From Bythopirellula goksoeyrii (GTDB lineage: Bacteria > Planctomycetota > Planctomycetia > Pirellulales > Lacipirellulaceae), in the NCBI RefSeq assembly GCF_008065115.1, contig NZ_CP042913.1, positions 5,467,257 to 5,531,256 on the forward strand: 64,000 bases of DNA, read 5' to 3'. The notes beneath the pieces were generated by a model. The model made no database searches. It saw nothing but the letters and a program-made list of their open reading frames with translations, and was not told the origin of the DNA. Positions 60,462 through 63,798 of this stretch are shown one piece after another (the first letter of the stretch is position 1; the number at the start of each line of letters is the position of its first letter). The translations under genes and the position numbers were made by a program.

Positions 60462-61076
60462 TCATTCCACGATAGCCTGATTGACCGTATCGATATCTTG
60501 TACCACCGCTGCATCCTCAACGGTCACGCGGAGACATCGTTCGGGGTATTGATTCCAGAATCCTCGCAATCCGTCGGGACATTCAGCGGCAAGCAACTCG
60601 CGAATCAGCGGGGCGGGCAGCAATACCGGATGCCCCCCCTGCCCTTGATACTCTGGCATCACAGCTTTGGTGGGTTGCTCGGTCGCGATGGCCAGCAATA
60701 ACATGAGAGTCGCTGGTGAAACATGGGGGTGATCACCCAGCTGTAGAAGTACGCTGGCCTTTCCATCAATGTTCTGTGCTGCATGTAGACCCACTTGGAG
60801 TGAGTGAAACATGGGCGCGTCGGCATCCGCAAGCACGGGTTGAAACTCGCGGTCACCCAACACGGCGGTTACTTCCTCGGCCCGATGACCCACCACAATG
60901 ATCATCTTCCGACATACAGCAGCGACTGAATCAAACGCCGCCGCCACGAGGGGTTTTTCGCCTGACGCAGTGGTTACGAGATGCAATTGCTTGCGACCGC
61001 CCATCCGCCTGCCGCGGCCCGCTGCGAGCAACACACCAATCGGTTGATTGCTCACCACGTCACTTTGCTCGACCAT
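60462..61076 (-). CDS. MocA-like molybdenum cofactor nucleotidyltransferase
   Basis: The frame is open to 61124; the ATG at 61076 (MVEQSDVVSNQPIG) lies inside the 3' end of the molybdoenzyme gene (17-base overlap) and gives 204 residues. The MobA/MocA signature is VLLAAGRGRRMGGRKQL, with the metal-binding LQLGDHPHVSP and the product-binding GQGGHPVLLP. MocA adds CMP to molybdopterin for the xanthine dehydrogenase family, and the overlap with such an enzyme gene supports that role; use of GTP (MobA-like) cannot be excluded. It is the last gene of its minus-strand pair; the next gene begins 170 bases downstream. Confidence 0.85.
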   Translation of the reverse strand: MVEQSDVVSNQPIGVLLAAGRGRRMGGRKQLHLVTTASGEKPLVAAAFDSVAAVCRKMIIVVGHRAEEVTAVLGDREFQPVLADADAPMFHSLQVGLHAAQNIDGKASVLLQLGDHPHVSPATLMLLLAIATEQPTKAVMPEYQGQGGHPVLLPAPLIRELLAAECPDGLRGFWNQYPERCLRVTVEDAAVVQDIDTVNQAIVE

Positions 61077-63798
61077 TGCGCATCGCTTGTGGCTTGGTGA
61101 TGGCCAGCGCCGCTGGGGAATCACTCATCGGCAGGCTGCGCCGTACGACGCCGTCATATTTATAAAGCGCCCCCGCGATGGCCGGAGCTGTCGGCACGAG
61201 GCCAATCTCTCCCACGCCGCGAGCACCAAACGGGCACTCCGGATCGGGCTCTTCGACGAAAATCAACTCCATCTCTGGCATCTGGTGGCTCCGCAGCACA
61301 CCACAGTCGTTCATTTTCTTGGCTTGGATAACACCCCCATCGCTCTGGAAATCCTCCGTCAACGCATAGCCGATTCCCATGTGCAGCGAGCCGTACATCT
61401 GCCCTTCGAGTTGCACGGGGTTCAGCACCCGCCCCACATCGTGAGCAGCAACCATTTTTGCCAAGCGTCCGTTCTCATCGAGAATCGCAACTTGCGTAGC
61501 AAACCCATAGGTAAGATGGGTCTTCGGACCGCCCGGTTTGTCGACGTGGTAACCGAGCTTGCTGGTGTAATCGCAAACCCACTCTCCCTGATACACCTGG
61601 CCAACAAGTTGCGAAAGCGTCTTGCCGCCGTCGAGCGCGTTCTTGAGCATCTCACCTGCCGCGGCAATTGAATTGCCAGCCAGCACGGTGGCGCGACTGG
61701 CTGTTGTTTGTCCGCAATCAAGTTGCAAGGTTGTATCGGTGGAAACCGTAAAATACTCTGGTGGGAGCCCCGTTGCTTCCACCGCGAATTGGATGCACAG
61801 AGTAAATAACCCCTGCCCCATTTCAGTGAAACCCGTGCGGATATGGATCGTTCCTTCATCCTCGACCGTTAGTGCCGCGCGACCAATATCCGGCATGCCG
61901 TTGCCGATGCCGACATTCTTGATACCGCAAGCGATCCCCGCGTAGGGGGCACTCTTGTAGATCTCGCGCACTGCTTCGAGCGTTTTTCGCAGGCCAAATG
62001 GCTTGTCGAGAATCTGGCCCGTCGCAAATGCTTCACCAGGTTCGAGAATATTGCGATCTCGCATATCGTAGGCATCGATGCCAACCTTCTCGGCGAGCCG
62101 GTCGAGCAATCCTTCGATCGCAAACGCCGCCTGATTTGCACCAAACCCTCGCATCGCGCCACAGGGAGGGTTGTTCGTGTAGACGGCCAGTGACTCCATG
62201 TCGACTGCCGGCACACGGTAGGGACCGGTACAATGGCCACCGGCCCGTTCGAGAACCTTGGCACCGACCGACGCATAGGCCCCCTTGTCGCCGATAATCC
62301 GCGCCTGCACGGCAGTGATGTGCCCCTCGGAATCGCAACCGACCTTGTAATCCAATTCAATCGGATGCCGCTTGGGATGAATCCGAAAACTTTCAGGACG
62401 CGTAAGTGTCAACTTCACGGGGCGACCTACCAACCATGCCATCAATGCCGTCTGGGCTTGAATCGACATGTCTTCCTTGCCCCCAAACGCGCCACCGTTG
62501 CTCACGAGTTCAACTTGTACGCGTGACGGATCAATCCCCAGCACAGAAGAAATCTGACGCTGATCGTCAAACACTCCTTGGCCCTGAGTGTAAACAAACA
62601 GTGAGCGAGCCGGGTCGTCCTCGACCCCGGTCGGGGCGCCATTCGGGGAGCCAGTCGGGGCGGGGGACCGCCCGGCTCGCTCATCGGTGGGGATCACCAA
62701 ACACGCTTCCGGCTCGAGGAATAAATGTTCAATTCGCTGGGTGACGTAAGAGTCCTCAATAATAAACGCCGAGTTTCGGAACCCCTCCTCGATATCTCCC
62801 CGCTTGAGCGACGATTTACTCAGCAAGTTCGACTCTAAATGAGGATGCACTCGTGGAGCATCTGGCTCAAGTGCCGCGCGGGGACTTGTTACCGGCTCGA
62901 GAACTTCGTATTCGATGTCAATCAATTCCGCAGCACGGCGCGCTAATCGTTGATTCTCCGCAACCACTCCTGCAATCACATCTCCCGTGCACCGAGTCAC
63001 ATCACCTATGCCGACAAAGACGGGCCAATCTTTGGCAATGAGACCTACCAAGGGATCGCCCGGCACATCGGCAGCAGTTACCACGCGATGGACGCCAGCA
63101 AGGTCAAGCGCGCGACTGGCATCAATGGACAGGATCTTGGCACGGGGATGATCGGTCAGCCGCACCGCTCCGTAGAGCATGTCTGGCACAGTCATGTCGT
63201 CGATAAACTTGCGATCCCCTAACACGGCGTCGTGACCCGTAAAGCGCGGCAGGTTGGTCCCCACCTTGCCCGATAAATCCGCCGCCGTCGGCTCGGGTAG
63301 TTTTTCACCACGGCGAAGCTTGGCATATTGCTCGATGCTATCGACGATCTGGGTATAGCCCGTACAGCGACAGAGGTGTGGCTTAAGAGCCGTGGCGATT
63401 TCTTCTCGCGATGGTTCGGGATTCTTGTCGCATAAACCCACACCCCGCATGGCCATACCGGGAATACAGAATCCACACTGCACACCGCCGCATTGCACAA
63501 AGGAATCGGCTATCTGCTGGCGGTGTTGCTCGTCGAGTCCTTCGAGCGTGGTGATCGATTTGCCAGCAGCCTTAACGGGTTTGATGGCGCATGATAGCAC
63601 CGGCTTGTCGTCCATCAGAATCGTGCAGCAACCACATTGTGCCTGGGGTTGGCAGCCATTCTTGGGAGAGGTGATCCCCAGATAGTCGCGCAGCACATCC
63701 AACAGGGTCAGCTCATCATCCGCAGGAAGCTGAACTTCGACGTCGGCCCCATTGACCTGACAAGCGAGCGTGAGAGAGTTTTCGGTGACAGTAGCCAC
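61060..63798 (-). CDS. Xanthine dehydrogenase/aldehyde oxidoreductase family molybdoenzyme with fused [2Fe-2S] domains
   Basis: The GTG start has GGAGG 9 bases upstream. The 912-residue protein has two N-terminal [2Fe-2S] domains (NGCQPQAQCGCCTILMD; GGVQCGFCIPGM … HLCRCTGY) and then the molybdopterin domains (about 185-905) without an FAD domain. This is the layout of Desulfovibrio aldehyde oxidoreductase (MOP) and of the selenium-type xanthine dehydrogenases. Conserved parts include QGQGVFDDQRQ, GAMRGFGANQAAF, GQTTASRATVLAGNS and the catalytic Glu in RGVGEIGLVP. The substrate may be a purine or an aldehyde. Residues about 373-399 (ERAGRSPAPTGSPNGAPTG…) are an insertion made by an 82-base palindromic element. 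Confidence 0.92.
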   Translation of the reverse strand: MATVTENSLTLACQVNGADVEVQLPADDELTLLDVLRDYLGITSPKNGCQPQAQCGCCTILMDDKPVLSCAIKPVKAAGKSITTLEGLDEQHRQQIADSFVQCGGVQCGFCIPGMAMRGVGLCDKNPEPSREEIATALKPHLCRCTGYTQIVDSIEQYAKLRRGEKLPEPTAADLSGKVGTNLPRFTGHDAVLGDRKFIDDMTVPDMLYGAVRLTDHPRAKILSIDASRALDLAGVHRVVTAADVPGDPLVGLIAKDWPVFVGIGDVTRCTGDVIAGVVAENQRLARRAAELIDIEYEVLEPVTSPRAALEPDAPRVHPHLESNLLSKSSLKRGDIEEGFRNSAFIIEDSYVTQRIEHLFLEPEACLVIPTDERAGRSPAPTGSPNGAPTGVEDDPARSLFVYTQGQGVFDDQRQISSVLGIDPSRVQVELVSNGGAFGGKEDMSIQAQTALMAWLVGRPVKLTLTRPESFRIHPKRHPIELDYKVGCDSEGHITAVQARIIGDKGAYASVGAKVLERAGGHCTGPYRVPAVDMESLAVYTNNPPCGAMRGFGANQAAFAIEGLLDRLAEKVGIDAYDMRDRNILEPGEAFATGQILDKPFGLRKTLEAVREIYKSAPYAGIACGIKNVGIGNGMPDIGRAALTVEDEGTIHIRTGFTEMGQGLFTLCIQFAVEATGLPPEYFTVSTDTTLQLDCGQTTASRATVLAGNSIAAAGEMLKNALDGGKTLSQLVGQVYQGEWVCDYTSKLGYHVDKPGGPKTHLTYGFATQVAILDENGRLAKMVAAHDVGRVLNPVQLEGQMYGSLHMGIGYALTEDFQSDGGVIQAKKMNDCGVLRSHQMPEMELIFVEEPDPECPFGARGVGEIGLVPTAPAIAGALYKYDGVVRRSLPMSDSPAALAITKPQAMRNGRAK
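62602..62683. mobile_element. In-frame 82-base palindromic element inside the molybdoenzyme gene
   Basis: Arms TGAGCGAGCCGGGTCGTCC (62602-62620) and GGACCGCCCGGCTCGCTCA (62665-62683) match at 17 of 19 positions. The loop holds three 12-base imperfect direct repeats (GTCGGGGCGCCA, TTCGGGGAGCCA, GTCGGGGCGGGG) that encode APTG/SPNG/APTG on the minus strand. It adds about 27 residues without a frameshift. No transposase is near, so it resembles REP or the Rickettsia palindromic elements. Confidence 0.75.

Follow-up and report, generated by a model that had tools for sequence, protein, structure and literature searches.

Why does a conserved enzyme gene read straight through an 82-bp palindrome, and what kind of DNA is this stretch? 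The question arises at positions 62602–62683 of the window (the whole 64,000-nt stretch of DNA analysed here), where an earlier note had described a palindromic element inserted in frame in a molybdoenzyme gene.

The 82-bp element and the enzyme loop that it encodes

Reading of the window sequence confirmed the palindrome at this position with the arms ascribed to it, 19 outer bases of which 17 pair, as well as the three internal 12-base direct repeats, which stand in tandem mid-element at 62627, 62639 and 62651. An automatic repeat finder returned 28-nt arms that were 82% complementary, and it detected only two of the three 12-mers. The GC content was 78% for the element, compared with 57% for the host gene and 54% for the window. 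The fold of the element beat 200 of 200 dinucleotide shuffles as DNA (z −3.8), and as RNA it likewise beat 200 of 200 shuffles (z −5.4). The element is read in frame as residues 373–399 of a 912-aa ORF, with the sequence ERAGRSPAPTGSPNGAPTGVEDDPARS. The features are listed in Table 1.

Table 1. Features of the element and its host gene (positions within the window)
Feature	Position	Strand	Content or basis
Host gene: 912-aa protein of the xanthine-dehydrogenase/aldehyde-oxidoreductase family (2Fe-2S and molybdopterin domains), intact frame	61060..63798	-	ORF, Pfam, TIGR03311, closest structure 1sij
Very probable inverted doublet of REP hairpins (REPIN), heads outward	62602..62683	.	Codes for residues 373–399 of the enzyme
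REP unit A, AGCGAGCCGGGTCGTCCTCGACCCCG: the head GCGAGC is unpaired, and the stem that follows has a 4-nt loop and a single bulged C	62604..62629	+	Genome copies and stem covariation
REP unit B, AGCGAGCCGGGCGGTCCCCCGCCCCGAC: 28-nt identity to the REPs flanking the RAYT-like gene	62654..62681	-	100% matches at G000:C1:6358161-6358188 and 6358793-6358820
Three 12-nt tandem repeats, protein APTG SPNG APTG, overlapping the tails of both units	62627..62662	.	Sequence

The host gene is the last complete gene in the window, and Pfam domains of its protein lie on both sides of the insert. The protein scored 935 bits against TIGR03311 (Se-dependent xanthine dehydrogenase), above the equivalog cut-off of 830.45; judged by this score, the gene is a TIGR03311 xanthine dehydrogenase. 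The adjoining minus-strand ORF at 60462–61124 begins with an N terminus containing the motif LAAGRGRRMGGRKQL, which we take to be like that of a MobA/MocA-type nucleotidyltransferase.

The insert lies in a loop of variable length. Between the EPEAC and QGQG motifs, the window protein has 37 residues, compared with 26 in the nearest relative, G004 (whose enzyme is 92% identical to the window protein), and 16 in G010; the median was 13 (range 12–35) in the 67 of 83 homologues in which the loop could be parsed, the other 16 being unparsable. The earlier note had proposed an alignment with homologues, and this showed the insert in none of the five orthologues aligned, all of which have a different loop sequence, with shorter loops in all 67 parsed homologues. 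When the protein was aligned with the solved structure 1sij, the inserted residues fell opposite a gap. The claim of 27 extra residues therefore stood in part: 27 residues are encoded by the element, and the number that is extra is only approximate, since it depends on which of these loop lengths is taken for comparison. As a separate observation, the loop contains simple repeats in three homologues (for example GGGGACGGGGGACAGGGGACGG, GGATGGCGGATGGCGGAT and GGGACTGAGGGACTGAGGGA in L100 of G024, L143 and L166), and the G010 homologue (L101/L129) has one in-frame stop, TAG, which may reflect a broken gene, an error in sequencing or recoding.

The enzyme was modelled with AlphaFold from 22 sequences (pLDDT 87, pTM 0.90), and a Foldseek search found 1sij to be closest to the model. 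Residues 376–395 had pLDDT values below 50 and lay between strands 365–371 and 399–404; residues 373–399 are thus predicted to form a disordered turn. Comparison of the host gene with that of G004 gave a dN of 0.049 and a dS of 1.70 (near saturation), indicating purifying selection on the gene taken as a whole; these figures do not date the insertion. The enzyme is probably still functional, with a longer loop that is predicted to be disordered.

No empty site was found: at the insert position G004 carries a different stretch of 18 residues. We considered whether this stretch might be a decayed copy of the element and dropped the idea, as the similarity was not significant (scores as high were reached in 314 of 2000 dinucleotide shuffles and 404 of 2000 codon shuffles). 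Since the G004 stretch differs and has no significant similarity to the element, insertion and replacement look alike at this site.

A dispersed hairpin family and its RAYT-like gene

A genome search for copies, also proposed in the earlier note, found 38 copies of the 26-mer of unit A within 3 mismatches in the single-contig 6.47-Mb genome, both in genes and between them, and none of the reversed pattern. A degenerate 25-mer had 46 copies within 2 mismatches in this genome. At the same threshold it was present in 19 of 59 genomes (own included), namely in 19 of the 36 that belong to the own family and in none of the 23 from other families of the order; the reversed 25-mer had no match across the 59 genomes. 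The 45 own-genome units at the loci read, which leave aside some further matches to the degenerate 25-mer, occupied 33 places, comprising 12 inverted doublets (partner within 110 bp) and 21 singles. Ten of the 12 doublets have their heads outward, as in the window, and the two with heads inward are both at the transposase gene described below. In the other doublets inspected, the spacers differed in appearance, by eye, from the 12-nt repeats of the window element.

Twenty-eight distinct REP variants, chosen for diversity, were aligned without gaps. They share a stem of 7 bp, with a loop of 4 nt and a single bulged base, paired in 94.9% of cells; two-sided changes occurred at five of the seven pairs, and the covariation score was reached by 0 of 500 shuffles. 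As the variants were chosen for diversity, these figures describe distinct types and not copies. The compensatory changes support the stem. The unpaired end reads GCGAGC, with G1, A4 and G5 invariant. A search of Rfam returned only two sub-threshold microRNA matches, which we judged to be due to chance.

Both of the observations that the earlier note would have counted against its reading, an ordinary conserved loop elsewhere and an element present only once, were looked for, and neither was found. Its central claim, an in-frame palindromic element in a conserved molybdoenzyme gene, is upheld by the dispersed copies, the homologues without the element, the conserved flanks, the intact frame and the predicted disordered loop.

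In the own genome, two REP doublets about 570 bp apart (G000:C1:6358127-6358820) enclose a RAYT-like gene, G000:C1:6358210-6358689, an ORF with the motifs DHVH, WWA and YIARQ. Its protein scored 17 bits against Pfam Y1_Tnp, below the cut-off of 23, so that the gene was located by reading between the two doublets. The right arm of the window element is identical at 28 of 28 bases to these doublets, which are oriented opposite to the window doublet. The G023 orthologue is likewise enclosed by REPs. Orthologues of at least 52% identity were found in 8 of 59 genomes, own included, and REPs of the window family lay on both sides of the gene in five of the eight, again with the own genome counted. 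In one further genome (L308) REPs were found on one side, the other being cut by the contig end, and at L304 (cut by a contig end) and L307 no REP was found near the orthologue in the stretch examined. REPs occurred without an orthologue of at least 52% identity in 12 genomes, some of which are incomplete drafts, and five of these (G017, G018, G019, G030 and G033) had matches at 21–29% only; in G035 the RAYT-like gene was found, and REPs at the threshold were not. Across genomes, the number of REPs is not tied one to one to the presence of a RAYT.

Genes recognized by Pfam as Y1_Tnp were also considered as the linked transposase and rejected: none of the 15 own-genome matches (14 above the Pfam cut-off) had adjoining REPs of the window family, nor did 30 loci out of 47 Y1_Tnp matches in seven relatives, except for two 6-mismatch matches that we took as chance. 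Apart from the window family, we noted hairpins of a second family, GGCGAGCCGTAAGCGTTAGCGCCCGGAG; nearly identical inverted doublets of these flank another RAYT-like gene, with a YVLYKQ motif, on either side (L092, 1307–2047, near G000:C1:5233182-5233379).

Because copies are dispersed, the stem is supported and a RAYT-like gene is flanked on both sides by the same hairpins, we consider the window element to be, very probably, two facing copies of the 26-nt hairpin, that is, a REPIN (an inverted doublet of REP hairpins) read in frame.

Other genes with the repeat in frame and the frame that is read

A second in-frame doublet in the own genome lies in a conserved gene (L033/L331) with matches in 58 of 59 genomes. 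The loop concerned had 20–52 residues in 28 of 29 other parsable loci; by eye, the G004 copy (L356) carries an apparent decayed single REP, and the G024 copy carries a doublet in the opposite orientation. A single REP is in frame in mnmA of the own genome. At the corresponding loop of G004 mnmA (L362), where the own genome has this family-1 REP, we observed a different palindrome, GGCGAGCCCGCTTCGGCGGGC, with the same GGCGAGCC head. The REPs in the MOSC and PrsW genes of the own genome are at the N termini and may precede the true start. Clear in-frame cases thus numbered 3 among the 33 own-genome places, on scanning ORFs of at least 200 aa.

The picture in G024, a draft genome, was different from that in G023. 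We read 24 G024 loci (L222, L391, L398, L405 and L411–L430) in list order from its 50 matches, nearly all mismatch-free, leaving aside two that were already covered, the RAYT locus and the second gene (in frame). At 21 of the 24, the REP was in frame in a Pfam-supported ORF; no such ORF was found at L413, L419 and L423. A Pfam domain extended across the REP or lay on both sides of it in 16 of the 21, with gene names beyond the Pfam family names being our own reading: helicase, ManC, UvrA, DnaE, DinG-like helicase, prolyl oligopeptidase, aminotransferase, ValRS, IF-2B family, PutA, YggS-like, DnaG, MoaA, YjeF_N, cysteine desulfurase and M56. The other five (L398, L416, L418, L422 and L430) had a domain on one side only. 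Among 30 G023 loci, only L296 (phosphomannomutase) was clear, and four were N-terminal. These counts indicate that the genic share of REP copies varies greatly between genomes.

By eye, the same loop or linker carried REPs in different genomes in three cases: the PutA linker (L400 and L421, in different frames), an AMP-binding enzyme (L418 and L448) and an M56 peptidase (L429 and L431). Such recurrence suggests repeated independent insertion at tolerant sites. At L407 (about 1030–1110), we also noted repeats that derive from REPs and stand in tandem, GGDAPARSGGDAPARSGGDAPAR, within a long ORF whose similarity to DUF748 was below the cut-off.

Open ORFs contain the REP unit in each of its six phases. 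One frame, which reads RAGxSxxP (GGxDAPAR on the other strand), was preferred, being found in 11 of 12 genes with an internal REP in a first sample, 16 of 26 in a second, and 12 of 20 in G024 alone. The binomial tails against one third, a null that presumes insertion without phase bias, were 5e-5, 0.003 and 0.013, respectively. The first sample had suggested a single obligatory frame for intragenic copies; this was abandoned on the second sample for a preference, for which selection against harmful frames or a phase bias of insertion is as good an explanation as a function of the insert.

For the first sample, 62 of 63 ORFs of at least 200 aa spanning a REP were scanned with Pfam, the remaining one being the window gene, which was scanned separately. 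For the second, 30 of 76 REP-spanning ORFs were scanned, namely the longest at 30 of the 47 loci with such an ORF; this sample was partly unblinded, as the G024 loci were all scanned and the others were partly chosen after their translations had been seen. Six N-terminal cases (L036, L047, L280, L285, L286 and L288), whose REP may precede the start codon, were excluded before the frames were counted; of the six, L036 and L285 use the preferred frame. The same was done with ORFs, such as L407, for which Pfam gave no family above the cut-off. L222 was left out of the second sample as already counted, and L401 as a duplicate of L224. L033 (the second gene) was retained on homology without a Pfam family, and L209, in another frame, was retained as a counter-example.

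Origin of the insert and comparison with known systems

By analogy with studied TnpA-REP systems, we hold it highly likely that a non-autonomous REPIN linked to a RAYT landed in frame in a tolerant loop. It would be the passenger of a small HUH (Y1) transposase of the RAYT/TnpA-REP type, encoded elsewhere in the genome. The transposase would cut single-stranded DNA at the hairpin foot, the doublet would move via a single-stranded intermediate, and one copy would have landed in the variable turn of the xanthine dehydrogenase gene; cutting, movement and landing are all steps that we infer from those systems. The insert would have survived because its length kept the frame, the frame is free of stops, the residues are mostly small and flexible, and the turn tolerates changes in length.

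A classical MITE, with terminal inverted repeats around a short spacer and moved in trans by a DDE transposase, would also present outer arms as inverted repeats, and these measured 28–31 bp in five doublets, with varying spacers. However, at 21 of the 33 own-genome places only one unit is present, without a partner, every unit is a covarying hairpin by itself, and units stand on both sides of a Y1-type gene in 5 genomes; we regard a MITE as unlikely. The loop might instead be a non-mobile, low-complexity Ala/Pro/Gly loop, the palindrome being a by-product of codon use in a GC-rich stretch; its variable length across the family and the simple-repeat loops of some homologues fit this. Such a loop would not recur as the same 25–26-mers dozens of times within and between unrelated genes, with none of the reversed pattern, nor would its arm share 28 identical nt with the REPs beside the RAYT-like gene, and we regard its probability as close to negligible.

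It seems improbable, too, that the insert was retained for a function, either as an mRNA hairpin that tunes translation or as a flexible loop that makes a new enzyme contact. The strong RNA fold (z −5.4) and the favoured frame (11/12 in the first sample and 12/20 at further G024 loci, with one third expected) are in its favour, but the frame preference has the two other explanations given above, the REPs lie in unrelated genes, close relatives differ in the loop, and none of the five orthologues aligned shows the insert.

Beyond this locus, we see an even balance for and against a wider proposal built on the landed REPIN. In Lacipirellulaceae, RAYT-linked REPs would be largely protein-coding passengers and, in at least one genome (G024), would lie mostly in frame in core genes, giving the flexible peptides (E/Q)RAG(A/S)S(P/T)P and GG(E/G)DAPAR with one frame favoured, repeatedly at the same variable loops. 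If so, a short mobile element would continually feed variation into protein loops instead of being an extragenic repeat. A concrete question becomes open to test: do transposon-borne short hairpins regularly give rise to new bacterial protein loops, and does the preferred frame reflect the chemistry of insertion or selection? For annotators and structural biologists there is also a caution, since an unusual loop rich in Ala, Pro and Gly in one of these proteins may be an insertion.

As in REP/REPIN and RAYT systems, the repeat of the window family is an imperfect hairpin (20–40 nt), a stem-loop palindrome with a conserved head that stays unpaired at one of its ends. Its copies are dispersed, some of them form inverted doublets, and hairpins of the same family flank a RAYT-like gene of the Y1 HUH type. 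It differs from them in its head, GCGAG(C) and not GTAG/CGTC, in having a modest number of copies (tens), and in that one relative's copies are mostly intragenic in the sampled loci. With GCGAGC as the unpaired end in the 28-variant alignment, it falls outside the GTAG and CGTC super-families as defined in PMC3733652.

Class 3 TnpA-Y1 genes are described (PMC6006769) mainly from Planctomycetes, Acidobacteria and Proteobacteria, with CnGA as the foot of the flanking hairpins. By eye, the linked gene resembles this class in phylum, in xHVH (here DHVH), in W[TA] (here WWA) and in its flanking hairpins. It differs in Y-x-x-R-Q (YIARQ/YVLRQ), one residue shorter than the published YV[VI][AENY]EQ, and the foot GCGAG is similar but not identical to CnGA.

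The earlier note knew in-frame palindromic insertions mainly from Rickettsia. They are known more widely: PMC3733652 reports intragenic GTAG and CGTC REPs within ORFs of Opitutus terrae, Thauera, Xanthomonas and others, and PMC6006769 reports REPs inserted in tnpA-REP genes without a frame break. According to the former, more than half of intragenic REP inserts are dimers or groups coding for 20–30 amino acids, replication and repair genes are among the targets, most REPs are intergenic, and several REP families were placed in the planctomycete Rhodopirellula baltica. The window family is like these intragenic REPs in being often dimeric and in frame in known genes, with 20–30 residues and replication and repair targets; it differs in hosts and foot sequences, and REPs there are mostly intergenic. 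The comparison with RPE, made at the level of description (partly after PMC3733652), holds for a palindromic, dispersed element in frame in genes; the lineage is another, and the window element is better described as a REP doublet linked to a RAYT-like gene than as an RPE.

Since in-frame intragenic REPs are already reported (PMC3733652, PMC6006769), the window case is of a known kind. The window REP family, its linked gene and the G024 pattern were not found in the open-licence literature, taken without two parts of PMC3733652 that might include a planctomycete family, its consensus figures and its supplementary lists. Apparently new are a REP family whose foot is neither GTAG nor CGTC and the pattern in G024, where a Pfam-supported ORF reads through the REP in frame at 21 of 24 sampled loci (at 16 of these with domains that span the REP or flank it on both sides), together with the frame preference. 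REPs were named as extragenic; here a family linked to a RAYT-like gene is read in frame in coding sequence, and the sampled copies of one relative lie mostly in coding sequence, including that of DNA polymerase III alpha, UvrA, primase and valyl-tRNA synthetase.
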